Shown: positions 26,893 to 43,740 of the stretch, one piece after another
Numbering within the stretch: the first letter of the stretch is position 1
Layout of the letters: each line of letters begins with the position of its first letter
IMG/VR virus record: IMGVR_UViG_3300001848_000201
Coordinates: 1 to 43,740 of that record
Direction: 5' to 3' (one strand)
Origin: a virus
Length of the DNA stretch: 43,740 bases
Notes under the pieces: model-generated
What the model saw: the letters and a program-made list of their open reading frames with translations, nothing else
What the model was told of the DNA's origin: nothing
The model's database searches: none
Position numbers and translations under genes: made by a program

Positions 26893-29800
26893 TTAGGCTG
26901 CTGCAATTGTAGTTACCGTGCCTCCAGATCCTCTATACTTCAGAGCACCAGATTCGACATAAAGCTGTCCCATGCTGGCCGGAGAAGAAGATGGCGCGGT
27001 CCCGTTAGCAATGCCTATAACGCCTACCGCAGAAGTACCGAAAGAAGAAACCCCTATTCCCACGTTACCGCTGTTAGCGAAACGGGCAATCTCTGTTCCG
27101 GCATTGTTTGATAATATTAGGTCTGGGGTAGCACTATTTGACGCTCCAAGGAAGAATTGCCCATTGGCCGCGTCGTTATATAATAATCCTAGGGCGTAGG
27201 TATCGCCACCAGAGGAGATATAGGTTCTTCCTCCGCGAACCTCTAGCTTGGATACCGTATTATGAAGGGCGGAGGTAGCTCCAATCAGTATTAGACTATT
27301 AGTCGTATCGACAGTGAAAATGCCAGTTCCTGCTGCATTCCTCAACTGGAACGCCGTAGTAGAATCTGTTACTGGCCGAAACCAAGTTGTCCCAGATCCA
27401 GCAGCTAAGCTGAAGGTGTTTGTATTTACGTGATTGCTGCCCGCCGTAACGCTGCTACCTGTGTAGTATGAAAATGTTCCGGATGATTCATTAAGCTCAA
27501 AAATTGCACCATAACCTGTGGCCCCTGCTGAATATGAACTGCCATATGTATTCCATGCCAATTGCCCGTACTGAGAAGAAATTCTCTGGAAGGATATTCC
27601 GACACCGACTGTGCCGTTGTTTGCTAAAGTCGCAACAGCGTTCGTGGAGTCGAAATTTGCAAAGGAGGTTCCCGCCGCGTTCTGGAACTGCCACGCCGTA
27701 GTAGAGTTGGTTACGGGTCTAATCCACGATGTCCCCGAACCAGTAGACAATTTCATTTGGGCCGTTCCTACAACAGATCCAACAGTCAGTCCAGTCCCTA
27801 GGTACAGGTCATTTTTTGAAGCAACTACGCCGCTTCCGGCCACTGTTCCAGTTAGGAATTGGTCCGCGCCAGCAGCAGCCGCAATACTAATCTCCTCCGC
27901 CGCTCGACCTACTGAAAATCCGATATAGTTAGCAGTGTTACCGCTCAACAGGCGCGCACCTGGGCTAAGTGAAACACTGTTTGCATTTATGTCTAGAAGT
28001 GCTCCAGGAGCGTTTGTCCCAATCCCAATTCTTCCGTTAGTTGAATCTACGTTGAAGATGTTTCCACCGGCAGCGGTTCGGAATTGCCATGCCGTGGTGG
28101 AGTTGCTCGATGGGGCGTAATAACTAGTTCCACTGGATACGACAGACAACAAAGTGTTTGCACTATTATCTTGTACGGAGAAGATCGACGTTGTGCTTTG
28201 CCCTGCTCCAGCCTTCACGATGCACTGCGTTACTCCTGTTGTGGCGGTCGCATCATAAACACGGAAAGTTCCGCTAGATCCACTCTTGGCTACATCCAAC
28301 CTGTAGTTCCCGTCTGTCGTAGACCCAGATACCAAATTCCCGGTGGCCATGAGGCGCATTTGCTCGGCGTTATTGGTGCCAAAGACGATTGGCTTGTTTG
28401 ACTCATTGCCGATAATTAATCCTTGATTAGACCCTCCTGAAATGTCTAGCAGAACCCAGTTTGCTACCGTGATACCGAAGGCCGTCCCGGTATACCCAGA
28501 GGAGTAGTTTGCCCATATCGCTTGGTTATTCGCGCCACTATCATTCTGGAGTATCAAACGGGCATTATCGCCCGTACCGCTGCCCGTGTTTTTGATTGTA
28601 AATTTCCTAGTGCCGGACGTTCCATATAGGCCTTGATCGCCGTTGACTGTGAGCTTATCAGGGAAACTTCCCGACCCGATTTGAAGGCCGCCAGCCATGT
28701 AACTGTTACCAGAAGCAAAATATGCAGCCCAGGAGTTGGTTAGTGTTACGTTAGATCCAGCCGTAGGCTTATCAGCAATATAGAAGGTTGCCGCATCGGT
28801 AAAAGTTACAGTAGAGGACGCCGCTATGGTTGGAATACCAATAGTATTCATCATTGCGGTCGCCACGGTTCCACTGCTTGACGTGTCGGTGTAAGTGGAC
28901 GCCACCACTCTAAGAGGGATACCCGCAGTGCCCCAAGCCGTCGCGGAAACGGCACCAGTAAGAGTAATTCTGTCTGAAGTGACGCTCGACAATGTCGGAG
29001 CAGTCCCGAATACGCTTACCCCCGTTCCAGTCTTGTCCGTCAACGCCGATGCTAGATTCGCGCTGGAAGGGGTAGCAAGGAAAGTTGCGACACCAGTTCC
29101 AAGCCCGCTAACTCCAGTAGAGATAGGCAGCCCAGTGCAATTAGTCAGAGTGCCGCTGGTTGGCGTGCCCAAGACCGGCGTAACCAGAGTAGGTGACGTA
29201 GCCAAGACCACCGACCCCGTGCCAGTAACGGCAGAGATCGTAGTTCCATTGATCTTAAAGGTATTGCCCGTGCCAGCTGTATCGTAGGTCTTATTGGTTA
29301 GGGTATCGGTGGTATCTCGACCAATGACCGTGTAGGAAGCATCCTGAAAGGTTAACGTTCTTGCGGCGGTAGGTGTACCATCAAGCTTAAAGCTAGTTGT
29401 CCCATAAGTGCCAGCCCCATAAAGGTACAAATTCCTAGCGGCCTTGGCAGCAGAACCGACATCTAGTCCGGTCTGGAAAAGAAGCGAAGCGTTGATGTTT
29501 ACCGAGACTAGGTTATCAAGAGCCTGACTAGCAGCCGCTCCACCAGTATTGGCTGCCCACTTCACGCCAGACGCCTGCGCCGAGTCGGCAGTTAGGATGT
29601 AATTATCCGTGCCTACTGCCAGCTTAGTAAGAGTCGTAGACCCGGTAGCGACCAGGATGTCACCTTTAGTAAAGGTAGACTGCCCAGTTCCGCCATAAGC
29701 CACCGTAATTACAGAACCATTCCAGGTTCCGGTAGCAATAGTGCCTACCGAGGTCAAAGAGGAGGCGGTTACTCCAGATCCAAGAGTAGATGAACTAAGT

Positions 29801-32721: not shown

Positions 32722-33360
32722 CTAAACTGCTAAAATTTCATCATACTCCAGTGCTGGACCTAAATCGTACTTGTCGGCTCGAAAATTCCCGTGATTGGAC
32801 ATTCCTTTCCACTTAGAGTAGTACGGCAAGTCAAACTCCAACCACTTATCCTTGGGTGGCATAACCATGGGTATGCCAAATTTATCACAGATCATCTTTA
32901 CCGCCTCAGGGATAGCCTTCTTTTGTGCCTCGGTAAAGGCTGCATAGTAGTCAAATCCACGGTAGGATTTCTGTACAAAACTCCCCTTATCGGACGCAGA
33001 ACAGTACCTTTGGGTAAAGTTCTTCGGCCAGCAGAGGAGATCATTCCCTATTTTTTTAAGGGGTCCAATATTTGCAATCTCTAGCCCGATGCTTCGCTTA
33101 TCGTGCTTATGGTTCCCTGAGTCGGATCCTGGGATCCCTAGGTGATACGACCACAACGATGGGTCATAAGTCTCATAGAGTGTTCCATCTAGGTCGAGAA
33201 TGTACGGGGTAGATACACCATTCTTTACGGCGTTCCAGCCAGAGATAGAGGAGGCTGCACCATAGCCAGAGGTAAAGTGTAGCACGAGTAGGTCTTTTGC
33301 TTGCTTCTCTGGAAAGAAGCATCCATCCTGGAGTCGATGTGTCGTCTGGTCTAACTTCAC
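32722..33360 (-). CDS. Endolysin, Amidase_2 N-acetylmuramoyl-L-alanine amidase (212 aa)
   Basis: 212 residues from GTG 33360, chosen because AAGGAGG lies just upstream; an upstream ATG at 33390 would include that site and a hairpin. Zinc and catalytic residues of the T7 lysozyme-like family are visible: H28 (VLHFTSG), H73 (SYHLG), E94 (IGLEIAN), H190 and D199 (SNHGNFRADKYDLGP). It cuts the amide bond between MurNAc and L-Ala in peptidoglycan. There is no signal peptide, so a holin must release it. Palindrome copy 8 lies inside the last codons. A strong terminator follows. Confidence 0.9.
   Translation of the reverse strand: MKLDQTTHRLQDGCFFPEKQAKDLLVLHFTSGYGAASSISGWNAVKNGVSTPYILDLDGTLYETYDPSLWSYHLGIPGSDSGNHKHDKRSIGLEIANIGPLKKIGNDLLCWPKNFTQRYCSASDKGSFVQKSYRGFDYYAAFTEAQKKAIPEAVKMICDKFGIPMVMPPKDKWLEFDLPYYSKWKGMSNHGNFRADKYDLGPALEYDEILAV
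32745..32760. promoter_or_regulatory. Dispersed palindromic site, copy 8 (end of the endolysin gene)
   Basis: ACTCCAGTGCTGGACC, one change in the core and one in the right arm. It encodes GPALEY at the amidase C-terminus, in a different codon phase from copies 4 and 5. Confidence 0.65.
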
Positions 33361-33378
33361 GTTGCCTCCTTGTAGGGG

Positions 33379-33404
33379 CCGGGGATCCATCCAAGAATCC
33401 CCGG
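33379..33404 (-). terminator. GC-rich hairpin before the endolysin
   Basis: CCGGGGAT (33379-33386) pairs with ATCCCCGG (33397-33404) around a 10-base loop. No U-tract follows on the minus strand. It lies between the upstream gene stop (33464) and the amidase Shine-Dalgarno. It may slow or process the transcript. Confidence 0.4.
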
Positions 33405-33463
33405 TTGTCGGGTAAGTTGGGAGACCTACTCCCTGGTTAACTCCATTATAGCAATAGACTTAA

Positions 33464-33673
33464 CTACTTTCCTAAGTTTTCAATGAAGGCACTACGGGAG
33501 AGCATCTCGGCGGCTGGCCTTAAGCCATTAGGGATAGGCATTGAGACCGCTCTGCCTGGGTAACAGCCCTTTCCAGACCAGAGGGTAACTGGACCAACCC
33601 TTGAGACAAAGTCTTCGAGAATCTTAATTACGTCTACTGGCAGGCTTACTTCCTGATGGGTAGTCATTGACAT
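33464..33673 (-). CDS. Small unknown protein (69 aa)
   Basis: Unrecognised. The start at ATG 33673 is preferred because GGAAAGGG lies seven bases upstream; ATG 33667 (two codons later) is also possible. It overlaps the end of the FmdB-like gene by 50 bases. Residues include VDVIKILEDFVSRVGPVTLW and a C-terminal RPAAEMLSRSAFIENLGK helix. No known motif. Confidence 0.5.
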   Translation of the reverse strand: MSMTTHQEVSLPVDVIKILEDFVSRVGPVTLWSGKGCYPGRAVSMPIPNGLRPAAEMLSRSAFIENLGK

Positions 33674-33887
33674 AAAATCCCTTTCCGTTAAACTTGATCG
33701 CAGGGGCATGAACCACCAGCTTAAGTGTCCGGTCTCCCGGCTCCTTTAATCCAAATCCAAGAGTCTCTTCGCCGAAGGTCTTTCCGCACTCTGGACACCA
33801 GTGGTCATCGGAGATGAAGCTGGTTATGGGCATCTTGACTTCTTCTCCATAGCCGCATCTTTCGCACTTATACTCGTAGGTAGGCAT
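33624..33887 (-). CDS. FmdB family zinc-ribbon protein (87 aa)
   Basis: 87 residues. MPTYEYKCERCGYGEEV, then HWCPECGKTF, gives the canonical FmdB zinc ribbon (C8, C11, C32, C35). The family pattern continues in IKFNGKGFYVNDYPSGSK. FmdB domains were named from formamidase regulators, but their role in phages is unknown. It is coupled to the upstream membrane gene by TAATG. A longer FmdB-like gene is at 18131-18505. Confidence 0.85.
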   Translation of the reverse strand: MPTYEYKCERCGYGEEVKMPITSFISDDHWCPECGKTFGEETLGFGLKEPGDRTLKLVVHAPAIKFNGKGFYVNDYPSGSKPASRRN

Positions 33888-34111
33888 TATTGAAAAATGT
33901 TATGATACAGATTAATAACTACTTCAACCAAGACCTGAAGCGGCCAGAACAGAGCCATCATAAACATGGCAAAGTTATCAGACCAATCAAAAGGAGCGGT
34001 CTCCCTGCCTGCTGCTGACCTAATCTGAACCCAATAGTGCCACTTGAAGATACCGTCAAAGTAGAACCAGACGGATATAACGAAGTAGGCGATGATTGAA
34101 AAGATTAACAT
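33887..34111 (-). CDS. Two-pass membrane protein, holin candidate (74 aa)
   Basis: 74 residues with two hydrophobic segments (LIFSIIAYFVISVWFYF, residues 2-18, and FAMFMMALFWPLQVLVEVVI, 47-66) separated by a polar loop. The small size, two membrane passes and position three genes before the amidase make it the best holin candidate here. There is no charged C-terminal tail as in many holins, so this stays tentative. Confidence 0.6.
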   Translation of the reverse strand: MLIFSIIAYFVISVWFYFDGIFKWHYWVQIRSAAGRETAPFDWSDNFAMFMMALFWPLQVLVEVVINLYHNIFQ

Positions 34112-34284
34112 TTATTAACCTGAGTATCGAAGCATTGACAGACGTGGCACGGCGGTTCGTAGGGAGTACACTCTTGGGCGGAGCAATCCTCAATTTCACA
34201 GATCCATTGCTGGCAGCGGTAGCACCAGCGAAGGGTCTTATTGGTTAGCTCGTCTCCTAGGGCACAGGCAAAGAGGTGTGTCAT
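34105..34284 (-). CDS. Cysteine-rich small protein (59 aa)
   Basis: 59 residues (34284 to 34105), with ten Cys at about 7, 21, 24, 29, 34, 39, 46, 49, 51 and 59. The CYRC and CHVCQC pairs suggest zinc or disulfide clusters. It overlaps the start of the membrane gene (7 bases) and, at its own start, the stop of the gene before (ATGA). No family recognised. Confidence 0.6.
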   Translation of the reverse strand: MTHLFACALGDELTNKTLRWCYRCQQWICEIEDCSAQECTPYEPPCHVCQCFDTQVNKC

Positions 34285-34445
34285 TTAGACTTGGTCCACT
34301 CGCAGAAGGCGGCATTGACGGCGGCGTCTCTCTTGCTTAGCCACTCATTTAGACATGTAGGGCATAGGTGCAAAACAACCCCGGAGGCCCTATAGGTCAG
34401 TAAGTCGCTCTTTTTATTGCACTTCTCGCAAGGCTGTTTAGTCAT
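34281..34445 (-). CDS. Small CxxC zinc-finger-like protein (54 aa)
   Basis: 54 residues from ATG 34445. CEKC near residue 6 and CPTC near 28 form a two-CxxC treble-clef or zinc-ribbon-like pattern, followed by a helical part (LNEWLSKRDAAVNAAFCEWT). Its TGA overlaps the next gene as ATGA. No family recognised. Confidence 0.6.
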   Translation of the reverse strand: MTKQPCEKCNKKSDLLTYRASGVVLHLCPTCLNEWLSKRDAAVNAAFCEWTKSK

Positions 34446-34446
34446 T

Positions 34447-34572
34447 CTAGAACAATCCTACTACAGATTTGACAATTAAGTAAACCAGCCACCAGGGAAT
34501 AATTACACACCCCAGTAGAAGTCCCACCGTCCACACCACCTGCGGCCCCTTGGGCGATCTTGTGGTCTTCAT
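34447..34572 (-). CDS. Single-pass membrane peptide (41 aa)
   Basis: 41 residues, basic N-terminus (MKTTRSPKGPQ) and one long hydrophobic segment (VGLLLGCVIIPWWLVYLIV, residues ~16-34). Its ATG overlaps the TGA of the preceding gene (ATGA), and its stop lies one base before the next start codon region, which support it being translated. It could contribute to membrane lesions, but this is open. Confidence 0.55.
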   Translation of the reverse strand: MKTTRSPKGPQVVWTVGLLLGCVIIPWWLVYLIVKSVVGLF

Positions 34573-34760
34573 TGGGGAGAGCACCTTGAACAGTTGCAGG
34601 TCATACAAATCACCTGAGCCCTAGAGGCAGCATCCTTGAATCCCCGAAAGAGGCACTCTCGGGGAACGCTTTCATCTTCTACCCAGTAGTGTCCTGGTAG
34701 GTCAAAGGGCGCTACTTGCTGCGGTGGTTGAGTTTCTTCCGGGACGGAGTTGTTGTCCAT
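34569..34760 (-). CDS. Small protein with C-terminal Cys cluster (63 aa)
   Basis: 63 residues. A Pro/Gln-rich start (PEETQPPQQVAPFDLPGHYW) precedes a Cys-rich end (CLFRGF, then CMTCNCSRC). It is two bases after the zincin-like gene and is coupled to the membrane peptide. No family recognised. Confidence 0.6.
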   Translation of the reverse strand: MDNNSVPEETQPPQQVAPFDLPGHYWVEDESVPRECLFRGFKDAASRAQVICMTCNCSRCSPQ

Positions 34761-34762
34761 AA

Positions 34763-35194
34763 TTAAGACTCTACCTTAATCTTGCTTAACTTGCAACCTC
34801 TATCCATTACATCAATAAAAGCCCGAGCCAATTGAACAACCACTCTCTCCTCGTGGGCGACCTGCTCTTTGCTCCACTCTCGCTCCGTATCGATAACCCC
34901 ATGCATCTCCGCCACTAGAATGTGACAGCACTCATGGACAAATACCTCTTCTAACTCGTTGTCGTTTAACTCAGAGCAGGCTTCGATATTGAAGCTAATG
35001 CTTGCCTCTAGGTACTGCCACTTAGAGGAGGTGCAGGCGGTTCTTTGCCACTCTTCATCATCCATAGCAGGGGGAGTATCGTCGTAACTATAACAGACCC
35101 TCCACTTCTGTAGTCCTAGGGGAACGTGCCACTTTCGGATTAAGGCCTCTAGTCGCTTAGTCGTGGCCTTGAAGTCTGCCTTGGATAGGGACAT
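34763..35194 (-). CDS. Zincin-like metallopeptidase domain protein (143 aa)
   Basis: 143 residues from ATG 35194, chosen because AGGAG lies six bases upstream. VFVHECCHILVAEM has the HExxH motif (H87, E88, H91), and a downstream AHEERVV (E115/E116) is a plausible third ligand. The N-terminus has GLQKWRVCYSYDD. The same layout, GLQ.W near residue 30, HExxH near 87-92 and a later xxEE, occurs in the gene at 42720-43121, so they are paralogues. SprT-like or ImmA/IrrE-like zincins are possible relatives; substrates are unknown. Its Cys pair within HECCH is unusual. Confidence 0.7.
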   Translation of the reverse strand: MSLSKADFKATTKRLEALIRKWHVPLGLQKWRVCYSYDDTPPAMDDEEWQRTACTSSKWQYLEASISFNIEACSELNDNELEEVFVHECCHILVAEMHGVIDTEREWSKEQVAHEERVVVQLARAFIDVMDRGCKLSKIKVES

Positions 35195-35275
35195 TAAAAC
35201 TCCTACACGAAGGGTAGCACGCCCCAAGATGGGCGGATTGTTATTTCTTAAGTTATTGAAAACAAAGAGTCTAAA

Positions 35276-35635
35276 TCACTCCAGGACTGGACTAAATTCT
35301 GCCGCTATTTCATCCAAGAGATCCACCTTGGTTGCCTCGGTAATGGCTCCGGTTAGGATCCTCTTGTCCTCGGGGTTAAGCTCCATGTGAGACTTGATTC
35401 TAATCCACTCTTCCATGAGGTCTCTATAGACTGGCCGTGGGGTAGTAATCTTTCTAGGTTTCTTGATTCTAGGGAGTCGATCTAGGCCGAGAGCCTTGGC
35501 GGCTTCTTTTCTGGCTTTGGTAGTGGCTTTCTTTCGCTCAAGGTGGAGTTTATTGTAGATCCTGATGCAGTCTTTGCATCTCCTGCGGACATGGGGATTA
35601 GGGTTGTCGCAGAGATACTTAGGCGTTTTAGCCAT
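35276..35635 (-). CDS. Basic unknown protein (119 aa)
   Basis: 119 residues. A Cys pair (CDNPNPHVRRRCKDC) at residues 9-23 and a long Lys/Arg-rich helix (LHLERKKATTKARKEAAKAL) suggest nucleic-acid binding. The end is acidic. It is the first leftward gene, diverging from the mini-gene array. An extended -10 (TGATATAAT) sits five bases before ATG 35635, so its mRNA should be leaderless. Palindrome copy 9 overlaps its last codons and stop. Confidence 0.6.
   Translation of the reverse strand: MAKTPKYLCDNPNPHVRRRCKDCIRIYNKLHLERKKATTKARKEAAKALGLDRLPRIKKPRKITTPRPVYRDLMEEWIRIKSHMELNPEDKRILTGAITEATKVDLLDEIAAEFSPVLE
35278..35293. promoter_or_regulatory. Dispersed palindromic site, copy 9 (gene end)
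   Basis: ACTCCAGGACTGGACT, one core change. It encodes FSPVLE-stop in the minus-strand gene. The left flank gives the full wider consensus (AAATC before ACTCC). Confidence 0.7.
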
Positions 35636-35649
35636 GCCTAATTATATCA
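35636..35649 (-). promoter_or_regulatory. Leftward extended -10 promoter, leaderless
   Basis: The minus strand reads TGA-TATAAT (TATAAT at 35641-35646), followed by five bases and ATG 35635. It overlaps the upstream flank of the rightward promoter, so the two compete. Confidence 0.6.
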
Positions 35650-35655
35650 TCCAAG

Positions 35656-35684
35656 TTGACAGGCCATCCGTCTAGCTATAAGAT
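35656..35684 (+). promoter_or_regulatory. Rightward sigma70 promoter of the mini-gene array
   Basis: -35 TTGACA (35656-35661), 17-base spacer, -10 TAAGAT (35679-35684). The start codon GTG 35692 is only seven bases after the -10, so the first message is leaderless. Confidence 0.8.
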
Positions 35685-35691
35685 TAGATTT

Positions 35692-35883
35692 GTGAAATCG
35701 CACTTGGTTCTCCCGGCTGGCCTTGTAGTTACTAGTAGGCACATGGCTATGCGGCTGTCTGCAACATCTTACAATCTACCAATTTCTTGCATCTCCACCT
35801 CCTGTAGTTATGCTTATGGTGGACAGTTATTTACACACTGGGCCAAGGCTATTATTGACTTCCCTGGGAGATTTGAGAGATAG
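35692..35883 (+). CDS. Mini-gene array, member 1 (63 aa)
   Basis: 63 residues from GTG 35692, chosen because the family starts MK; translation reads MKSHLVLPAGLVVTSRHMAM. Ser/Thr-rich middle with two Cys (SCISTSCSYAYGG) and a basic end (PGRFER). It lies seven bases after a consensus -10. One base separates its stop from the next start. No family outside this array recognised. Confidence 0.65.
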   Translation: MKSHLVLPAGLVVTSRHMAMRLSATSYNLPISCISTSCSYAYGGQLFTHWAKAIIDFPGRFER

Positions 35884-35884
35884 A

Positions 35885-36052
35885 ATGAAAGTCTATAACA
35901 TGGCAGGGCCGGAGAAGATGATATCAGACCGCTTTTGCTGGTATACAAGGATTAGCTCCATTGCAATGTGGACAGTTATGAGTCCATCGATAGTTAGTCT
36001 TGTTCCGCCTGATAAGAAGCTATGGAAGGAGCGGTTGTACCGATGGGGCTAA
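35885..36052 (+). CDS. Mini-gene array, member 2 (55 aa)
   Basis: 55 residues, starting MKVYNMAG. It ends LWKERLYRWG, a C-terminal motif shared with members 3 and 4. A GAGAG sequence upstream is a weak ribosome site. One base separates it from member 3. The shared start MKVYNM with member 3 points to a direct duplication. Confidence 0.65.
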   Translation: MKVYNMAGPEKMISDRFCWYTRISSIAMWTVMSPSIVSLVPPDKKLWKERLYRWG

Positions 36053-36053
36053 C

Positions 36054-36242
36054 ATGAAAGTTTATAACATGACCGGGATCGGCCCAAGCTGGACGAAATT
36101 GCTAAGTAAGGGATTGGTAATGTACACCTTCGAAAGTGCATCCTCGTCTTACTATTCCACTGCTGCATCAATTAAGCAATTCACAATAAAAAGTGATGAA
36201 TTGTGGAAAAATCGACTGTATCACTGGTTGCACGAGGTATGA
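36054..36242 (+). CDS. Mini-gene array, member 3 (62 aa)
   Basis: 62 residues, starting MKVYNMTGIGPSW. Ser/Thr/Tyr-rich centre (YTFESASSSYYSTAAS). The C-terminus LWKNRLYHWLHEV aligns with members 2 and 4. Its TGA is overlapped by the next ATG (ATGA). Confidence 0.65.
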   Translation: MKVYNMTGIGPSWTKLLSKGLVMYTFESASSSYYSTAASIKQFTIKSDELWKNRLYHWLHEV

Positions 36243-36421
36243 AAGCCTACCTAATGACCGTTATGAGCCATGAGCAGTCTGCCAAGTGGTTCAACCTATA
36301 CGCCAGAAAGAGCAGGGCCAGAGGGCGATGGCTTGCTCTGGCGGCCTCGCTGCTTTATTTGGTTATAGATAACAATGAGAGGCTATGGAAGAAAAGACTT
36401 TACCACTGGGATACCGACTAG
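36239..36421 (+). CDS. Mini-gene array, member 4 (60 aa)
   Basis: 60 residues, starting MKAYLMTVMSHEQS. Basic middle (ARKSRARGRW) then a hydrophobic patch (LALAASLLYLVI), the most hydrophobic stretch in the array but short. Ends LWKKRLYHWDTD, as in members 2 and 3. Confidence 0.65.
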   Translation: MKAYLMTVMSHEQSAKWFNLYARKSRARGRWLALAASLLYLVIDNNERLWKKRLYHWDTD

Positions 36422-36422
36422 G

Positions 36423-36632
36423 ATGAAAGTCTACATGGCTCTATTCCACGGCTATGAGCCGTCAACCCGAAGTGTAATGGTAACCGCAAGAGGCTTTCAT
36501 GAGGGTGTCTCTATGTTATCGAGAGCATACACAAACAATATTGGGCTACAGTCATGGGCGTACTGTCAACCTACTCGACAGCACGCCCATCACGTAGGAT
36601 CCATGAGAGTCTTCCCAAGGAGGGCATATTGA
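36423..36632 (+). CDS. Mini-gene array, member 5 (69 aa)
   Basis: 69 residues, starting MKVYMALFHGYEPSTRS. His/Arg-rich C-terminal third (RQHAHHVGSMRVFPRRAY). It ends inside the strong Shine-Dalgarno region of member 6; its TGA overlaps that gene's TTG. Confidence 0.6.
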   Translation: MKVYMALFHGYEPSTRSVMVTARGFHEGVSMLSRAYTNNIGLQSWAYCQPTRQHAHHVGSMRVFPRRAY

Positions 36633-36814
36633 AAGCCTGGATGTATTTACCGTGGATGAGAACAAGCGAAACTTGTTCAATGGATGGATTTCAAATAGAG
36701 TCTCATTGTATTACCGGCAAAGGATGGGCGAACGGGGCCTCTGTAAAGGTTATTCGAGACGGGCACAGGTTCTCGGCGGCGGAAGAGCAGGTGTACGCGG
36801 AGAGGGTGGGGTGA
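36629..36814 (+). CDS. Mini-gene array, member 6 (61 aa, TTG start)
   Basis: 61 residues from TTG 36629 (TTGA overlap). AAGGAGG at 36617-36623 is the best ribosome site in the array and fixes this start. Reads MKAWMYLPWMRTSE..., close to member 7 (MKIWMYCPVMDT). Ends AAEEQVYAERVG. Confidence 0.65.
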   Translation: MKAWMYLPWMRTSETCSMDGFQIESHCITGKGWANGASVKVIRDGHRFSAAEEQVYAERVG

Positions 36815-36816
36815 CT

Positions 36817-36978
36817 TTGAAGATCTGGATGTACTGCCCTGTAATGGATACCGCAAATAAGTGCTACAGGTACTGCACTTATTTGCGTCAGGTGTTCTTA
36901 GAAGACCCAGGATGGGACAGTAAGGCGGTATCATTCTGCCAAGCCGGTTGGTGGTTTAGATCTAGTAGATTCTTATGA
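36817..36978 (+). CDS. Mini-gene array, member 7 (53 aa, TTG start)
   Basis: 53 residues from TTG 36817, giving MKIWMYCPVMDTANKC. GTG 36811, two codons earlier, overlaps the previous stop (GTGA) and is an alternative. Five Cys and many aromatics (CYRYCTYL, AGWWFRSSRFL). Confidence 0.6.
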   Translation: MKIWMYCPVMDTANKCYRYCTYLRQVFLEDPGWDSKAVSFCQAGWWFRSSRFL

Positions 36979-37181
36979 AACCATACCTAATCGGACTAGT
37001 TAGTCCGCACTACCGCAAGGGAATACCGGGAGCGCATAAGAAATGGGTTACATCTGCCCATCAGTCAGGAATTGGAATAGAACTACTTAGCACTGTCTCT
37101 AGGCACGGCAGCAATGGGTCACTAGGTGCCTATTGCTGCTATACGTCCTTTAAAGGCAGGTTCCCGTACTACGTATTATGA
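36975..37181 (+). CDS. Mini-gene array, member 8 (68 aa)
   Basis: 68 residues, ATGA-coupled on both sides. Starts MKPYLIGLVSPHYRKG, like members 16-18 (MKPW/MKPY). C-terminal GAYCCYTSFKGRFPYYVL resembles the AS/CYR region of later members. Confidence 0.65.
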   Translation: MKPYLIGLVSPHYRKGIPGAHKKWVTSAHQSGIGIELLSTVSRHGSNGSLGAYCCYTSFKGRFPYYVL

Positions 37182-37351
37182 AACACTTCTTAATGTCGTC
37201 ATGCCATGTATGGGGCACTGGCCCTTGCGAAATTATGTCCTGGGTTTTAGCGCACAGGGTGGCTCCCAACGCAAGCTCTCTAACTAGTCCATTCGGAGCG
37301 GCTAGCTATGCCAGCCTAGAGTGGCAATGGTTGCCAAAGTTTGATGTCTAG
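37178..37351 (+). CDS. Mini-gene array, member 9 (57 aa)
   Basis: 57 residues, starting MKHFLMSSCHVWGTGPC. ATGA overlap with member 8. Contains ASYASLEWQW near the C-terminus, the YAS pattern of later members. It is the last gene of the first sub-block; 246 bases follow before member 10. Confidence 0.6.
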   Translation: MKHFLMSSCHVWGTGPCEIMSWVLAHRVAPNASSLTSPFGAASYASLEWQWLPKFDV

Positions 37352-37517
37352 GGTAGTATTGTAATTACCAATGAGAGCCTGTCTCGATAGACGTGAGATC
37401 GTATCTTTATTTCGGCCCAGTCAGAAGCAGCATAAGCAACGCTGCGATCCGGTGCTGCTCTCTTGAATGTTTACTCCTGTTTCTATTCCCTCCAGTAAAG
37501 ACAGGACGTGATTAAGG

Positions 37518-37546
37518 TTGACATGTAGATAATAACTGGCTATACT
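37518..37546 (+). promoter_or_regulatory. Sigma70 promoter of the second array block
   Basis: -35 TTGACA (37518-37523), 17-base spacer, -10 TATACT (37541-37546). The start of transcription is expected near 37553, about 20 bases before palindrome copy 10 and 45 bases before ATG 37598. Confidence 0.8.
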
Positions 37547-37573
37547 TCAGCTTATGGTTGGCACCTCAGAATC

Positions 37574-37589
37574 ACTCCAGTACTGGACT
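37574..37589. promoter_or_regulatory. Dispersed palindromic site, copy 10
   Basis: ACTCCAGTACTGGACT with the full wider flanks (AATC before, AATC after). It lies in the 5' leader of member 10, just downstream of a consensus promoter, a classic roadblock or operator position. Confidence 0.8.
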
Positions 37590-37597
37590 AATCTGTA

Positions 37598-37870
37598 ATG
37601 AAACACTGGATTACAGCATTACCGTTTGCTGGCCACAGGTACTGGTCAACGGGAGAGATTCCAGTATGGTGTGCCACTACCAAGGCGACGATCTATCTGT
37701 CTGGGAGCGTCACACAGCAAAGCAAGATACTTGTCTCAATGCAGAGTAAAGCTAGCATTTTGAATGGGTTATATGGATGCGTCTTGGCGTCTTACGCCAG
37801 AACAGACAGCATGGCATGGCACTATTACCCAAAGATTGGCTGGAGATCTAGCAAGGTAGGTGAATTTTGA
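37598..37870 (+). CDS. Mini-gene array, member 10 (90 aa)
   Basis: 90 residues, the longest member. Starts MKHWITALPFAGHRYW. Middle is Ser/Thr-rich (TTKATIYLSGSVTQQSKILV). ASYARTDSMAWHYY gives the recurrent AS-x motif. First gene of the second sub-block. There is no clear Shine-Dalgarno. TTGA overlap with the next gene. Confidence 0.65.
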   Translation: MKHWITALPFAGHRYWSTGEIPVWCATTKATIYLSGSVTQQSKILVSMQSKASILNGLYGCVLASYARTDSMAWHYYPKIGWRSSKVGEF

Positions 37871-38049
37871 GGCAGTGGCTTAGATCGATAACCTACAGAG
37901 ACTCTAAAATTGTGTATAGTTCTCTTGTTGATCTTCAATGGAGTTTCTTCAATTCATATTCTTCAGGCAATGGAATTGTGGCTGAGTTCGCCTCGTGCTA
38001 TAGGTCGGTTCCGGCAGGCCGTAGAGGGATGCACACTAGGGTCGTATGA
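37867..38049 (+). CDS. Mini-gene array, member 11 (60 aa, TTG start)
   Basis: 60 residues from TTG 37867 (TTGA overlap), reading MRQWLRSITYRDSKIV. This is the only member with Arg instead of Lys at position 2. C-terminal FASCYRSVPAGRRGMHTRVV aligns with member 12 (WASCYRDAIPWRSGMILRTK). Confidence 0.65.
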   Translation: MRQWLRSITYRDSKIVYSSLVDLQWSFFNSYSSGNGIVAEFASCYRSVPAGRRGMHTRVV

Positions 38050-38231
38050 AGAGTTACCTGCAGGGGCTAACCACCAGAGACTCTACCTATGCCAATTTAT
38101 GGACCATGGCACTAACCGCTAAGTCTATCTGGACATCAACTCAGTCAAGAGATGGTGTTCTAGTGGAGTGGGCCTCGTGCTATAGGGACGCCATCCCATG
38201 GAGATCTGGCATGATACTAAGGACAAAATGA
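38046..38231 (+). CDS. Mini-gene array, member 12 (61 aa)
   Basis: 61 residues, ATGA-coupled. Starts MKSYLQGLTTRDSTYAN; TTRD is shared with members 13 and 14. Ends WASCYRDAIPWRSGMILRTK, paralogous to member 11. Confidence 0.7.
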   Translation: MKSYLQGLTTRDSTYANLWTMALTAKSIWTSTQSRDGVLVEWASCYRDAIPWRSGMILRTK

Positions 38232-38458
38232 AGAACTTTCTCTACTGCTGGACTACCAGGGACGCAATTATTTCCCAAGCCATAGAGGGGAGGCTCTCCG
38301 TGGTGTACGACATGTTTACAAAGGTCGGCAAAATCCATGGAGTAGATACCCACATTGATACTTTGTCAACCTCCGCCGGTACCATTTGTTCATGCTACGC
38401 TTCAGGCTACACCCATCCGTATCACACTAAGGGAGGGATGCTACTCAGAAACCGATGA
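38228..38458 (+). CDS. Mini-gene array, member 13 (76 aa)
   Basis: 76 residues, ATGA-coupled. Starts MKNFLYCWTTRDAIISQ. CYASGYTHPYHTKGGMLLRNR at the end aligns with member 14 (CYASCW...VIMRNR). Confidence 0.7.
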   Translation: MKNFLYCWTTRDAIISQAIEGRLSVVYDMFTKVGKIHGVDTHIDTLSTSAGTICSCYASGYTHPYHTKGGMLLRNR

Positions 38459-38655
38459 AACACTACTACTGCTGGACGACCAGGGACGCATGCAATATAT
38501 CCACACATTTTCATTGGTCTAAAATCGGAAACCAAAATGGAGCCAATTACACAGTTGACCTGATATCAATGAGCGATTATTTTTTCGCCTGCTACGCCTC
38601 TTGCTGGAGCGCATTACCATGTCACCGTAGAGGCGTTATTATGAGGAACCGATGA
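38455..38655 (+). CDS. Mini-gene array, member 14 (66 aa)
   Basis: 66 residues, ATGA-coupled. Starts MKHYYCWTTRDACNIS. The first ~22 bases are nearly identical to the start of member 15 (MKHYYCWTL), evidence for a recent duplication. Ends CYASCWSALPCHRRGVIMRN. Confidence 0.7.
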   Translation: MKHYYCWTTRDACNISTHFHWSKIGNQNGANYTVDLISMSDYFFACYASCWSALPCHRRGVIMRNR

Positions 38656-38888
38656 AACACTACTACTGCTGGACACTCCCGCACTACATTAACTCCTTGG
38701 CGGTATACCAATGTCTGGCGTGTTATCCAATCGGCAACGAGAGGCATTATATCTTTAAGTCAAGTCCTGCTAAGTCAGCTAATGGAGTAGTTGCGACCTG
38801 CGCCTCGGCAGTGATTCGAGTCTTGGATAGATCAAAAGACGGATCATCCAGGCAGACATTTATAAGGACCTATAACAGATCAAAATGA
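38652..38888 (+). CDS. Mini-gene array, member 15 (78 aa)
   Basis: 78 residues, ATGA-coupled. Starts MKHYYCWTLPHYINS. After the shared start the sequence diverges at once from member 14; the C-terminal half (TCASAVIRVLDRSKDGSSRQ) has the AS motif and a basic tail. Confidence 0.7.
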   Translation: MKHYYCWTLPHYINSLAVYQCLACYPIGNERHYIFKSSPAKSANGVVATCASAVIRVLDRSKDGSSRQTFIRTYNRSK

Positions 38889-39106
38889 AACCCTGGATAT
38901 CGACAATTACCTACGTTAACTATAGGCACCTGTCAAACAGAGATGGGCCAATGAAGAACATAATGCCGTACATTACCAAGTCTGGAGGTAAAACGTGGAC
39001 AGGATCCGGGAGGTACTTAGTTTATGCATCGCTGTTTCCATTGGTTATGGATCCACTAAAAGACCCACACTGCTTTGTCGGTAGAGTCAGGATGTACACA
39101 AAATGA
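38885..39106 (+). CDS. Mini-gene array, member 16 (73 aa)
   Basis: 73 residues, ATGA-coupled. Starts MKPWISTITYVNYRHLSN. Contains a Gly-rich turn (KSGGKTWTGSG) and VYASLFPL, and ends GRVRMYTK. Members 17 and 18 have the same layout and ending, so this triplet is the best aligned part of the family. Confidence 0.75.
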   Translation: MKPWISTITYVNYRHLSNRDGPMKNIMPYITKSGGKTWTGSGRYLVYASLFPLVMDPLKDPHCFVGRVRMYTK

Positions 39107-39345
39107 AGCCATATCTGTCTACAATTAGCTACAACCACTACGAGCCATACTTTAAAATTAGGAACAGGGTAATGATTAGTAGAGATCCGTGGTGCGGGAA
39201 ATCAGGAGGAATAACCATTGGAGGATCAAAGAGGAACGTAGTGTTTGCCTCAATGCGTCATGGATTTGAGAACTGCGGACTACTAGATGTCTACTGTAAA
39301 AACGGCCCTGGATTTATCGGTAGGGTCAGGATGTACACAAAATGA
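39103..39345 (+). CDS. Mini-gene array, member 17 (80 aa)
   Basis: 80 residues. Starts MKPYLSTISYNHYEPY. SRDPWCGKSGGITIGG then VVFASMRHGF; ends GRVRMYTK. Relative to member 18 it carries a short insertion after FASM...F (ENCGL). The alternating hydrophobic pattern suggests a small all-beta protein. Confidence 0.75.
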   Translation: MKPYLSTISYNHYEPYFKIRNRVMISRDPWCGKSGGITIGGSKRNVVFASMRHGFENCGLLDVYCKNGPGFIGRVRMYTK

Positions 39346-39566
39346 AGCCCTGGATATCATCAATTAGTTACGTCCACTACCAGCCATATGTAAATATCAA
39401 GAACGGCCCAATGAGAAGTCGTGATCCGTGGTGCTGTACAACCGGAGGAAGAACCATGGGTGGTCACTATAGGCGAGTAGTGTATGCCTCAATGCTTCAT
39501 TGCTTTGATGTCTACTCCAGAGACGGAATTGGATTTATGGGGAGAGTTAGGATGTACACAAAATGA
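39342..39566 (+). CDS. Mini-gene array, member 18 (74 aa)
   Basis: 74 residues. Starts MKPWISSISYVHYQPYVN. SRDPWCCTTGGRTMGG and VVYASMLHCFDVYS align with member 17 (identical SRDPWC). Ends GRVRMYTK. Confidence 0.75.
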   Translation: MKPWISSISYVHYQPYVNIKNGPMRSRDPWCCTTGGRTMGGHYRRVVYASMLHCFDVYSRDGIGFMGRVRMYTK

Positions 39567-39799
39567 AACCATGGATAAGAAGCCTAAACATACCATCTCA
39601 GTTCATCTTTAATGGCTGTAGCATCTTCGCCATAACGGAGTCAGTTGACGGATCTAGAACACTAGAATCTACCCTAAGTAGGCAGTGCCGGGAGCCCGGT
39701 AAGCATCGTTGCTACATAGTTGCAAGTGATACGTTTAGTCCACTTCCTGCAAGGTCGATCATTAAAGCTCCAGTCAAGATGCCGGAACTGTACACATGA
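39563..39799 (+). CDS. Mini-gene array, member 19 (78 aa)
   Basis: 78 residues. Starts MKPWIRSLNIPSQF. The body differs from its neighbours, but YIVASDTFSPLPARS keeps the AS motif. Ends KMPELYT. ATGA overlap with the last member. Confidence 0.7.
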   Translation: MKPWIRSLNIPSQFIFNGCSIFAITESVDGSRTLESTLSRQCREPGKHRCYIVASDTFSPLPARSIIKAPVKMPELYT

Positions 39800-39963
39800 A
39801 GACTTGGATTTCTGGACTAACCATGGGAAGAATGATATCAAGCAAGAATCCAATGTTCCACTGGTCGTTTGAAATGAGGTGCAGATTTAACAACCGCATC
39901 ATCACCCACATGTTCCGCGAGTTCGGGGATAGGCGGCGCTTCTACTACCGACCCACAATTTAG
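39796..39963 (+). CDS. Mini-gene array, member 20 (55 aa)
   Basis: 55 residues, the last member. Starts MKTWISGLTMGRMISS. Arg/Phe-rich C-terminus (CRFNNRIITHMFREFGDRRR, FYYRPTI). It ends 37 bases before the 635-residue gene. Confidence 0.7.
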   Translation: MKTWISGLTMGRMISSKNPMFHWSFEMRCRFNNRIITHMFREFGDRRRFYYRPTI

Positions 39964-39986
39964 TTAGGCTTGAGCCACTAAATCCT

Positions 39987-39992
39987 TATAAT
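39987..39992 (+). promoter_or_regulatory. -10 hexamer next to the start of the 635-aa gene
   Basis: A perfect TATAAT, eight bases before ATG 40001; no good -35 at 16-18 bases. AGAGG also lies four to eight bases before the ATG. Either a leaderless promoter or coincidence in an AT-rich gap. Confidence 0.4.
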
Positions 39993-40000
39993 AGAGGTAG

Positions 40001-41908
40001 ATGGCTAGTTATCCTCCACAACCGCAAGGCCCTCCTCTAGCCTTCTATCTGGACCCCAACGGGGAATATAAGTCCTATCTCTCCCAAGTAACCCAATCAC
40101 CGCAACGTACCGCAGCAGCCACGCCTCCTGTCGTGGTCAACCGCAAGAACCAACCCCAGGGACTACAGTCCCAGAAGAACGAAGTAGCTACTCCGGCACC
40201 GGTTCCTGGGTTACAGGACGTAATTAATGGGATTCAGGCCGGTATGGCAATGTCGGCCAGCCCAGGATGGGGTACCGCTACCTCCCTGGCCTCTCTTTTG
40301 ACCAAGGAAGCGCCTACCGGAGAGGTTCTAGAGGGTGGAGCAGAGCGTAGATTCCCGAGTTATGACGTCCTAAGGGCCATGAGCCAGATAGCCAAGGATA
40401 AGCTATCTCCTGAGGTCTTGAACCAGCTAATTAATGCCCGTGATACGGTCTACCACGCTACAAAGCTACCTAACCTAGAGGGGATTGTCCGTGGGATGAG
40501 GCTCAAGGGGCCGGTCTCAGTTTCTAGGGTAGGGGCAATTAACCCCAAGGCTTCGGCTACTGGGACCGATGTTAGCCTAGTCTTACCGACGTCGGCTATT
40601 ACCGAGGCGGGTGGGGAACCGTTTGTCTATCCAGGGTACGGGAAGACGCAGCGCACTGGCTTCGATACGCCTGCGTATCTTGCAAAAATGAACCCAGACT
40701 TTGAGTTTGAGTATCAGACCAAGAATCCAGTACAGCTTAACCCCAATACCCTACAGAAGGTAGTCTTAAATCAACCCCACGTAGAAGCTGCGTTCGGTAC
40801 TCCGCAGATGATCGATGCCGCCAAGGTGCTCAGGGAAGATATCGGAAAGTCTCCACTAGCCGCCTGGACTAAAGACCTACTTACATCAGAAGCTGAGAAG
40901 TGGATGGATAATCCAATCACCTTCGATCACGTTAAGTCGTTCATTCAAAACGGATTAGATATTCCAGTTGAGAGGTCAATGTCGCTCCACGACATGATTA
41001 CCGATAGGGTTCGTCAAGGTAGTAAGATGTTTGATCCCTTCCTGGCCGATAGAGTTAAGCCAGCGGATCTGCCTTCAGTAGTACTTAACTCTAACGGCAT
41101 GGCTAAGGCAATTAGTGACCAGGATAGGCTAAGAACTTTTGTAAATGGACTGCCGGACGCCATTAGGGACGGAAGATTCAGCGGTCCTGTTGACTATTAC
41201 GCCATGGACGGCGGACCAATAGCAAGTTATTTCAAGATAGACCCAGGTCAGGCCGCCGAGGTGTTCAATAAGGCTGTCTATGGGAAGCCAATTTTTAAGT
41301 CAAAGGATCCCTACTCGTCCAGTTTTGAGCCAACCCTGGAAAACATGGCCCAGGCCATCCGCAGCAAGCTCGACCCAGAGTTCTTGCGCCAATTGCCGAG
41401 ATTACAGCCAGAAAACTTCACCCCAGGCATGCCTAAGGAGCGGCCAAACTTAGGAGAAATAAGGAGTTCTGCCAAGAAGTCGGCACAAGAACCAGGCAAC
41501 CTCAGCGGTGGATGGGAGGAACAGCCGATTCCTTCTACTGGACCAACTACTCAATCTGGATCATGGGTTGGATTAAAGCCAACACAGGAAATGCTAGACA
41601 ACGGAGCCATCATTGGTCTTCATCCAGAAGGTTCCGGGTATGGATCTCAGGTTGGAAATAACCTCTGGCCACTGTCTGCAATTTCTGCATCAGAAGGTAA
41701 AAAAGTAAACCAACTACTAAGCGGGAAAGTACATCAGTTCATCTCCGACATGATAGCTAATCCTGCCCAACTTGACGGCGATCACGTTCAACTTGGACAC
41801 TTCCAGAGCCTGCTGAAAAACTTCCTAGGTGGTGGCGATAAAACCAATCAAAATTACAAGGAAGCAAGAGATAAGCTATATGACAAACTTTGGGGACAGT
41901 CAAAATAG
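40001..41908 (+). CDS. Large protein with possible ART-like motif (635 aa)
   Basis: 635 residues. Residues 1-70 are Pro/Gln-rich and disordered. Around residues 146-180, DTVYHATKLPNLEGIVRGMR followed by KGPVSVSRV resembles the YH-x-T start and following S-x-S strand of ADP-ribosyltransferase-like domains in phage polyvalent proteins. A matching glutamate is not obvious, so the link is weak. Later parts are helical with several Pro-rich linkers; a C-terminal helical region contains HVQLGHFQSLLKNFLGGGDK. Multi-domain, soluble, no signal peptide. It could be an injected effector or internal virion protein. It follows the mini-gene array in the same direction. Confidence 0.55.
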   Translation: MASYPPQPQGPPLAFYLDPNGEYKSYLSQVTQSPQRTAAATPPVVVNRKNQPQGLQSQKNEVATPAPVPGLQDVINGIQAGMAMSASPGWGTATSLASLLTKEAPTGEVLEGGAERRFPSYDVLRAMSQIAKDKLSPEVLNQLINARDTVYHATKLPNLEGIVRGMRLKGPVSVSRVGAINPKASATGTDVSLVLPTSAITEAGGEPFVYPGYGKTQRTGFDTPAYLAKMNPDFEFEYQTKNPVQLNPNTLQKVVLNQPHVEAAFGTPQMIDAAKVLREDIGKSPLAAWTKDLLTSEAEKWMDNPITFDHVKSFIQNGLDIPVERSMSLHDMITDRVRQGSKMFDPFLADRVKPADLPSVVLNSNGMAKAISDQDRLRTFVNGLPDAIRDGRFSGPVDYYAMDGGPIASYFKIDPGQAAEVFNKAVYGKPIFKSKDPYSSSFEPTLENMAQAIRSKLDPEFLRQLPRLQPENFTPGMPKERPNLGEIRSSAKKSAQEPGNLSGGWEEQPIPSTGPTTQSGSWVGLKPTQEMLDNGAIIGLHPEGSGYGSQVGNNLWPLSAISASEGKKVNQLLSGKVHQFISDMIANPAQLDGDHVQLGHFQSLLKNFLGGGDKTNQNYKEARDKLYDKLWGQSK

Positions 41909-41930
41909 TTTTATTCACTACTGAATAATT

Positions 41931-41946
41931 ACTCCAGTACTGGACT
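41931..41946. promoter_or_regulatory. Dispersed palindromic site, copy 11
   Basis: ACTCCAGTACTGGACT in the gap between the 635-residue gene and the LpxH-like gene, flanked by AATT on the left and AATTT on the right. Confidence 0.75.
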
Positions 41947-41978
41947 AATTTCACAGTAACTCCACCTAAACATTCTCC

Positions 41979-41994
41979 TGCTACCCTAAGAGTA
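41979..41994 (+). promoter_or_regulatory. Weak extended -10 before the phosphoesterase gene
   Basis: TGC-TACCCT (TACCCT at 41982-41987) then seven bases to GTG 41995. The same TGCTACCCT string occurs on the minus strand upstream of the zincin gene at 35194. Weak by consensus. Confidence 0.3.
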
Positions 41995-42723
41995 GTGCCA
42001 CACTACCGTTCCCTCTTTATTAGCGATATCCACCTAAGCTTTAATGGCTCAAACCCAGACAAAGTACTTCGCCTACTAAAAGATAACTCGTTTGATTTCA
42101 TTTACTTAGTTGGAGATATAATCGATCTTTGGGCCATGAAGTCATCTCCTCACTGGCCAGAACCCGCAAATCAGGTCATCCGCCGCCTACTTAAGTTAGC
42201 CCATAATGGCACCAAGGTAGTCTACTTACCAGGGAACCATGATGACTTCCTTAGAACCGTCAGTCCCATTGACTTCGGGAATATAACCATTATAGACAGA
42301 GCCATTCATGTCTCAGCCAAGGGAGAGAAATACCTAGTTATCCACGGCGACCAGTTCGATTCCATTGTCTCAAAAATTAAGTGGCTGGCAGTCCTTGGGG
42401 CATGGATCTACGACCTGCTACTCTGGATCAATGGGCCAATAAACGCAGTCCGGCGACTCCTGGGAATTTCTTCCCACTTCTCCCTAGCCGCAGCCCTTAA
42501 GAAGAAGACTAAGGCGGCTACCTCGTTTATTAGCTCATTTGAGACTACCTTGGCTATGGCCGCAAAGGCCGCTGGGTGTAATGGCGTTATCTGTGGGCAT
42601 ATCCATACCCCAGAACACTCCGTTATCAATGGCATAACCTACCTAAATTGTGGTGATATGGTTGAGTCTATGTCATTCATTATAGAAGACTTCCACGGAA
42701 ATCTAGCCATTCAAAGATTTTAG
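41995..42723 (+). CDS. LpxH-like metallophosphoesterase (242 aa)
   Basis: 242 residues from GTG 41995. All calcineurin-like phosphoesterase motifs are present: D11-x-H13 (ISDIHLS), GDIIDLW (D41), GNHDD (N81, H82), IHGDQFD (H117, D119) and GHIHTPE (H202, H204). The helical insert (residues ~126-185) and NCGDMVES near the end fit UDP-2,3-diacylglucosamine pyrophosphatase-like enzymes such as LpxH, which make lipid X for lipid A. The motifs look catalytically intact. In a phage it might alter lipid A or UDP-sugar metabolism. It ends convergently with a zincin gene, stops overlapping by four bases. Confidence 0.85.
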   Translation: MPHYRSLFISDIHLSFNGSNPDKVLRLLKDNSFDFIYLVGDIIDLWAMKSSPHWPEPANQVIRRLLKLAHNGTKVVYLPGNHDDFLRTVSPIDFGNITIIDRAIHVSAKGEKYLVIHGDQFDSIVSKIKWLAVLGAWIYDLLLWINGPINAVRRLLGISSHFSLAAALKKKTKAATSFISSFETTLAMAAKAAGCNGVICGHIHTPEHSVINGITYLNCGDMVESMSFIIEDFHGNLAIQRF

Positions 42724-43121
42724 AAGGACGGCGCACTGGGCAAAAACCGCCGCAGGCCAACCAATCCAGTAGCTATTGACTCTACCATGTGCTCCTCAAA
42801 TGTCTCAGAATAGTCCGTACGGCCATCCATAAACCCAGCATGACAGTGCAGTAGCTCATGTACCAACGTCAACTCAGGGTCATAAGGCCAGTCAGTATCC
42901 AGTGTGGCATCATGGCTAACTCTATCAAGAATAAGTATCTTAGCTGCCTTCTTCGAGAAAGATACACTACAGGAGCCGAGTTTCCCTGGAAGTCGCGCCG
43001 CATTACACATCTCGGCCTTGATATCCCAATCCTGCAACCGTAATACCTTCTGCCATTCCCGTAAGCAGTACTCCAAGTCAGAAGAAGTCATTGATAGGTC
43101 AGTCTTGGTTAAGTCGGTCAT
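42720..43121 (-). CDS. Zincin-like metallopeptidase domain protein (133 aa)
   Basis: 133 residues. LTLVHELLHCHAGFMD carries HExxH (H88, E89, H92); ETFEEHMVESIATGL supplies a candidate third ligand (E109/E110). RLQDWDIKAEM matches the GLQKWRVCYS region of the gene at 34763-35194, so the two are diverged paralogues. The minus-strand promoter predicts that the message starts at the ATG. Substrate unknown; SprT-like or ImmA/IrrE-like families are possible relatives. Confidence 0.7.
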   Translation of the reverse strand: MTDLTKTDLSMTSSDLEYCLREWQKVLRLQDWDIKAEMCNAARLPGKLGSCSVSFSKKAAKILILDRVSHDATLDTDWPYDPELTLVHELLHCHAGFMDGRTDYSETFEEHMVESIATGLVGLRRFLPSAPSF

Positions 43122-43128
43122 CTAGCAC

Positions 43129-43157
43129 AGTGTACCACCAGTCCATCTTTTTATCAA
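43129..43157 (-). promoter_or_regulatory. Sigma70 promoter giving a leaderless message
   Basis: Minus strand -35 TTGATA (43152-43157), 17-base spacer, -10 TACACT (43129-43134), then seven bases to ATG 43121. This is the clearest leaderless start in the window besides the one at 35692. Confidence 0.7.
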
Positions 43158-43427
43158 CCTGGGCCGCCTCTAATAGACCAGAACCGATAGCTCCGTACCC
43201 ATCCCATAGACCGTAGCCTATAAGGGATAGAAACCTCGTCAACCGCCGCTAACTTCCGTGGATTTTGCCGCCCTCGCCGCTATCACCCATGGCTACTTAT
43301 CCCCCATATAGACCATAACCCCTACTGCCCAATAAACTATCTCCCTACTCCTCCAATCCCTACCACTAGCCTCTATGTTCTTTATTGTCTTTATGTCTTT
43401 CAAATAACTTACATAACTTACTGCATC

Positions 43428-43728
43428 TTACATAAGTGCATAATCCTATTTGTATACCTTACTGGTTCTCATGCCAATTATGTGCTTTATGTAAACATAT
43501 TTCTTTATGTGCTTTATGGTTTTACTGATTTGTCAGGTAGGCCGAGTAAGTTGTTGATTCTGCATGATTTTTTAATTTTTATTTTTCTACGCATGTTGGG
43601 GCTTGCCCTCTCCACCCCACCACCACTGAAGCCACCATACCCTCTCCGCCTAACTTTGGCCCTTCAGTTGCGCCATTATGTCGATACATAAAGACATGTA
43701 AGTACATAAGAGATAGCAGGTACATAAG
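43428..43728. repeat. Short iteron-like repeats TTATGTGCTTTATG and TACATAAG
   Basis: TTATGTGCTTTATG occurs at 43478-43491 and 43505-43518 (27 bases apart). TTACATAAG or TACATAAG occurs at 43428-43436, 43703-43710 and 43721-43728, with TACATAAAG at 43685-43693. ACATAAC and TTTATGTC are nearby variants. Confidence 0.6.
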
Positions 43729-43740
43729 ACGCACAAGATG

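Follow-up and report, generated by a model that had tools for sequence, protein, structure and literature searches.

How does a phage come to carry a long chain of very small, poorly similar genes, most of them joined start to stop, and what might their products do? The question is raised by array A, a series of 20 plus-strand frames of 53–90 codons each at positions 35692–39963 of a 43,740-nucleotide (nt) stretch of viral DNA (the window; IMG/VR record IMGVR_UViG_3300001848_000201). Coordinates refer to the whole window, and values above 43740 continue its numbering onto the parent contig, the 86,007-base phage contig 3300047400_000090 of IMG/VR, of which the window is the reversed segment 39299–83038. 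A preliminary description of the window placed the phenomenon at 35692–39963, which is correct for array A; however, it goes on beyond the window with 18 more such genes, so that the phage has about 38 mini-genes of 42–90 codons in four clusters (A–D), most of them joined by start-stop overlaps and mostly without a Shine-Dalgarno (SD) sequence. The reading that fits array A best is that of early mini-proteins specific to this lineage, a young repertoire that has expanded by tandem duplication and is translated through termination-reinitiation, with starts that are probably leaderless.

Coupled frames and their translation

The 20 frames of the preliminary description were all recovered, with their MK starts save one: 19/20 members begin with MK and A11 with MR, from ATG, GTG (A01) or TTG (A06, A07, A11) codons. 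Its statement that they are joined by start-stop overlaps also held. The junctions are exact 4-nt overlaps in 14/19 cases, +1 gaps in three, a +2 gap in one, and a gap of 246 nt in the remaining one, which lies between A09 and A10, divides the array into 9 + 11 genes and holds a promoter-like site matching the consensus at 11/12 positions. The longest coupled chain of frames with an M[KR]x[WYFL] start comprised 11 members in the real region vs. a maximum of 1 in 100 first-order Markov shuffles. The C-terminal motifs noted earlier are present as well, LWKxRLYxW in A02–04, ASCYR in A11–12 and GRVRMYTK in A16–18.

Codon-position patterns agree with the frames being translated. In protein-guided alignments, the proportion of nonsynonymous differences (pN) was below that of synonymous differences (pS) in all pairs tested, with a ratio of the corresponding rates (dN/dS) of about 0.43 for A17/A18, many other pairs being saturated. 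Protein-guided alignment is biased toward pN < pS, and DNA-guided alignment served as the control; there, differences at codon positions 1/2/3 numbered 193/173/233 (p = 0.009). The dN/dS check proposed in the preliminary description and its control thus show selection on protein, of modest strength. Repeat-like junctions with variable interiors could also belong to a structured RNA array, or to a DNA repeat array (CRISPR, diversity-generating retroelement), read as frames by chance. This is extremely unlikely: there was no Rfam match up to E = 1, folding z-scores were near zero (mean −0.19; 3/38 below −2), reading frames are preserved all along, and no coupled M[KR]x[WYFL] chain is seen on the antisense strand of the region. 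A diversity-generating retroelement was also rejected as a candidate, as no reverse transcriptase (PF00078) match was found in the 86-kb contig.

SD sequences are absent in 11/20 A members, reduced to a 4-nt match in 7/20 and longer in 2/20. A −10 box 7 nt ahead of the GTG suggests that the A01 start is leaderless, and the short frame at 37554, similarly placed behind the second promoter-like site (Table 1), is probably a leaderless entry to the second half of the array. These two sites had been called the best sigma70 promoters of the window; the one at 37518–37546 is indeed joint best, whereas the one at 35656–35684 (10/12) is only one among several equal matches, and the 20 promoter-like sites in 33000–43740 are no excess over shuffles (16.4 ± 4.4). 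ATGA overlaps are an established site of termination-reinitiation; of 14 pairs tested, 13 were strictly coupled (PMC6728339). The junction type is the same as in array A, although that study described overlapping gene pairs, and in array A up to 11 mini-genes, tandem paralogues among them, follow one another. The simplest reading of array A translation would be a leaderless entry with termination-reinitiation from there on.

Duplication, divergence and relatives

The mini-genes had been taken for one family of 20; a single family is not demonstrable, and several subfamilies are seen instead. Smith-Waterman scores were compared with those of shuffles, with correction for 630 pairs, and the comparison was repeated without the first six residues; the subfamilies that hold without these residues are A16–A18, A13–A14, A11–A12, A02–A04 and C01–C02. 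Cross-cluster pairs fell to the shuffled mean once the first six residues were removed. Profile comparison (hhalign), as had been suggested, gave alignments between subfamilies that covered the first 6–10 residues at most. Significant similarity beyond the start was thus confined to subfamilies. What most members share is just the M-K-x-aromatic start; in the form M-[KR]-x-[WYF] it occurs in most A members and in B01, B02, B05 and D01–D05. The aromatic residue at position 4 is encoded by TGG (15), TAC (6), TAT (3), TTC (2) and TTT (1), and its retention across different codons suggests a protein-level rather than a DNA-level constraint on the start.

Adjacent pairs scored 53.8 vs. 23.5 for other pairs (p = 2e-10; p = 2e-6 without the first six residues), and a 31-nt repeat of 97% identity spans the A13/A14 and A14/A15 junctions. 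Compared in fixed registers, adjacent genes were 51% identical over the first 36 nt, 38% over the last 36 nt and 26%, the random level, in the middle, with the reservations that the middle reaches 45% under the best of 61 offsets (a generous measure) and that length differences explain part of the contrast between ends and middle. The fast divergence proposed at first is supported. Judging from the sequences, the mini-genes arose by tandem duplication with fast divergence; new members may have been added with the help of near-repeated junctions, each made of a gene end and the ATGAAR-x-aromatic start of the next.

Three syntenic relatives (capsid 74–77% identical, terminase about 61%) have no mini-gene arrays of this kind. 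In the two in which the primase junction was read, the primase halves are parted by one unrelated 73-amino-acid (aa) gene, with no convincing match in the array-bearing phage, and the third relative has the same spacing. Either this lineage has therefore gained the arrays or the others have lost them, two cases that one lineage cannot tell apart; visible duplication favors recent growth. Searches for closer relatives with the terminase, and with a 635-aa gene next to array A, returned the parent contig only, and no named relative reaches 30% identity in capsid, portal or terminase. Low-complexity frames with long Gly-Tyr or Ala-Thr repeats, where more than one reading frame is open, also occur in the relatives, at about 6600–7610 and 93390–94170 in one (G006) and about 88500–91300 in another (G007).

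No named family fits the members scanned, as had been stated at the outset. PHROGs gave no match for 14/20 A members and four of B–D, Pfam none for eight A members and two of B–C, and NCBIfam and PADLOC none for five A members and two others; a PDB profile search gave a single chance match (E = 0.91). Among the members scanned there was no Pfam, PHROG or NCBIfam match to a known anti-CRISPR or anti-defence inhibitor family; PADLOC models represent defence proteins and are weak evidence on inhibitors. The profile search of phage databases that had been advised returned the parent contig only, in IMG/VR scans with A18 and with the A02–04 alignment. The highly diverged A11–18 alignment had no match in the relatives, named phages and plasmids gave no match over chance level, and a search of the literature on tandem small paralogues in phages found nothing fitting. 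A homology-free scan for three tandem ATGAARNNNTGG starts yielded 6 and 1 stretches in viral contigs and 66 in genomes, none of which proved on inspection to be such an array, and a looser start-pattern scan had one unrelated trio among the matches listed. Another small coupled tandem family does occur in a phage contig (IMGVR_UViG_3300033145_000316, 6174–6723), with three coupled small acidic paralogues (MKEFEKHW..., MKAFEEHW..., MKEFEKWY...) unrelated to array A. On the minus strand of a locus of Oxalobacteraceae CFBP 13730, MKPWVPACAGTT... frames follow one another in tandem with 4-nt overlaps; they are apparently a DNA repeat between genes that happens to read as frames, which calls for caution in pattern-based searches.

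Candidate roles of the products

From its position, size and diversity, and by analogy with the early gene sets of SPO1 (PMC6873191) and archaeal viruses (PMC11065993), the likeliest role of array A would be that of a host-takeover or counter-defence repertoire; we hold this tentatively, as a reading that is quite possible yet short of probable. Early transcription of array A would come from promoters that give leaderless starts, each frame would receive its ribosomes from the one before by termination-reinitiation, and the output would be a mixture of small proteins that are basic and rich in aromatic residues. The start and end, which are conserved, might be a docking part shared by the members, with the variable middle meeting host targets that change, a guess from position, size and diversity. 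That expression is probably early, as first proposed, accords with gene order: late genes (tail, capsid, portal, terminase, amidase endolysin) lie on the minus strand, and array A begins the plus-strand half at a divergent junction. Of the features of a host-takeover module, clustering and small size are found (20 genes of 53–90 codons), with early timing inferred from position only.

Several observations weigh against this reading, and some against the wider one of a young early repertoire. Clusters B–D are flanked by replication genes, and a host-takeover set would not have to be there. Array A residues match random-translation expectation save for extra W, Y, M and F and fewer E and Q, and GC content at codon positions 1–3 is 0.40/0.48/0.52, the first-position value being abnormal for this phage (0.50–0.58 in eight other genes). 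AlphaFold2 gave no confident fold (mean predicted local distance difference test scores of 43 and 60), its alignments of only 8 and 3 sequences being so shallow that the models neither show nor exclude a fold and are too poor for a fold search. The leaderless starts are based on consensus promoter matches, and one phage population is covered. Given the abnormal codon-position composition, weakly constrained young genes have to be taken seriously as an alternative to an effector set under fine tuning.

Such genes could make up a gene nursery, in which duplicated open reading frame (ORF) cassettes pile up at coupled junctions: any in-frame ATG...TGA cassette would hand ribosomes on, openness would be kept to avoid downstream polarity, and most products would do little. 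This explanation, which we regard as possible but on the unlikely side, fits the near-random residue composition, the missing first-position G pattern, the diverged middles, the low AlphaFold confidence and the absence of arrays in relatives. It also fits cluster D, which lies inside a coupled primase region where a coupling-breaking cassette would harm the primase core. Against it stand pN < pS in all pairs, the third-position excess and the retained C-terminal motifs. The position-4 aromatic, which persists although its codon changes among those for W, Y and F, also suggests that the start is under selection as protein; moreover, no coupled gene lies downstream of array A, and polarity does not explain its open frames. 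Compared with a host-takeover or counter-defence repertoire, a nursery explains composition better and conserved ends worse.

The downstream end of array A bears on a further possibility, that the mini-frame chain acts as an expression rheostat, setting the dose of a downstream gene through ribosome loss at each junction, with the peptides irrelevant. In its favor, seamless ATGA joins lead into the primase core in cluster D and from the VWA gene in cluster B. In array A, however, the last stop is at 39963 and the next gene follows 37 nt on with its own SD-like and TATAAT-like sequence, so that no coupled gene is fed, and protein motifs are conserved; we consider a rheostat highly improbable. 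A cassette system is unlikely, though less so: here mini-frames with a common start (ATGAAR-x-aromatic) and shared ends would be duplicated, shuffled and inserted at coupled junctions in several operons, and the phage would thereby keep renewing a stock of dozens of proteins, translated but weakly constrained, as a source of effectors.

The products are small, mostly basic (isoelectric point, pI, mostly 9–10) and cysteine- and aromatic-rich, as might be expected of a toxin-antitoxin-like or competitor-targeting peptide set. Such a set is nonetheless improbable, as the array is a long series of like genes rather than a pairing of two unrelated ones, no transmembrane helix is evident in array products (highest 19-residue hydropathy 1.61), and the members scanned had no Pfam, NCBIfam or PADLOC match. 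Type II toxin-antitoxin was rejected as a candidate, a two-gene pair with a known domain not having been found and Pfam and NCBIfam giving no match.

Genomic surroundings and known systems

Table 1. Mini-genes, clusters and putative expression signals (window numbering; pI, isoelectric point).
Feature	Position	Strand	Description
Promoter-like site	35656..35684	+	TTGACA-17-TAAGAT; 10/12 consensus match; −10 box ends 7 nt before A01 GTG
A01	35692..35883	+	63 aa; GTG start
A02	35885..36052	+	55 aa; subfamily A02–A04 (MKxYxM ... LWKxRLYxW)
A03	36054..36242	+	62 aa; subfamily A02–A04
A04	36239..36421	+	60 aa; subfamily A02–A04
A05	36423..36632	+	69 aa
A06	36629..36814	+	61 aa; TTG start; sole A member with strong SD (AAGGAGG)
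A07	36817..36978	+	53 aa; TTG start; weak likeness to A06
A08	36975..37181	+	68 aa
A09	37178..37351	+	57 aa
Frame MRSYLYFGP...	37393..37515	+	40 codons, in A09/A10 gap; array start motif; possible extra, short or decayed member, by motif only
Promoter-like site	37518..37546	+	TTGACA-17-TATACT; 11/12 consensus match; −10 box ends 7 nt before ATG 37554
Leader frame MVGTSESLQYWTNL	37554..37598	+	14 codons; TAA overlaps A10 ATG (TAATG)
A10	37598..37870	+	90 aa
A11	37867..38049	+	60 aa; TTG start, MRQW; subfamily with A12 (ASCYR)
A12	38046..38231	+	61 aa; subfamily with A11
A13	38228..38458	+	76 aa; subfamily with A14
A14	38455..38655	+	66 aa; subfamily with A13
A15	38652..38888	+	78 aa
A16	38885..39106	+	73 aa; subfamily A16–A18 (GRVRMYTK end)
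A17	39103..39345	+	80 aa; subfamily A16–A18
A18	39342..39566	+	74 aa; subfamily A16–A18
A19	39563..39799	+	78 aa
A20	39796..39963	+	55 aa; pI 11.5
Cluster B	58614–59784		Six frames; B01 overlaps stop of DUF2201/VWA gene; last frame overlaps ERF recombinase start by 35 nt
Cluster C	65718–66831		Frames at 65718, 65873, 66013; then 87-aa gene; then pair 66443/66643 (MRFxYMFG)
Cluster D	76590–77886		Seven frames between DnaG zinc-ribbon gene and Toprim primase core; ATGA joins at both ends

To the left of array A are a SprT-like gene and a 119-aa gene (no Pfam match), and to its right is the 635-aa gene (no match). The adjoining SprT-like metallopeptidase (34763–35227, minus strand) is slightly under the Pfam cut-off (E = 4e-5). 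No helix-turn-helix model matched the neighbors in a non-exhaustive search for an Aca-type regulator beside array A. Also on the minus strand, 26893–32028 encodes a repetitive tail-fibre-like protein of 1711 aa. Past the window are recombination, primase, helicase and RNA-ligase genes. A DUF2201 metallopeptidase/VWA gene stands directly ahead of cluster B, and DNA primase is encoded in two genes, zinc-ribbon (75931–76593) and Toprim core (77883–78503), a split also seen in relatives, with variable small genes between.

If the products matter, the clusters are an unusually large and visibly young example of phage small-effector creation, in which duplicates that have diverged to every degree lie next to one another, and they offer about 38 candidates ready for testing. 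If they do not, the clusters show clearly how new genes that are translated accumulate under the constraints of coupling, which has usually had to be inferred. Either way, the origin of phage ORFan genes becomes directly testable.

Two known systems offer comparisons. Archaeal viruses such as SIRV2 have clustered, fast-evolving early anti-defence genes, including paralogues of anti-CRISPR genes (PMC11065993). Like these, the genes of array A are many, small, fast-evolving and clustered, with paralogues, and probably early; unlike them, SIRV2-type genes belong to archaeal viruses and are mostly single, each with a shared regulatory sequence, and no sequence relation between the two was detected in the libraries searched. 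The host-takeover module of SPO1 comprises 26 mostly small early genes (PMC6873191) and resembles array A in its clustering of small genes at an early (in array A, probably early) locus, its promoter-like sites and its phage-specific proteins. However, the SPO1 genes carry ribosome-binding sites of the kind typical of high expression, and no series of tandem duplicates is described among them (PMC6873191), whereas the mini-genes described here are coupled mostly without SD sequences, include tandem paralogues and occupy four loci.

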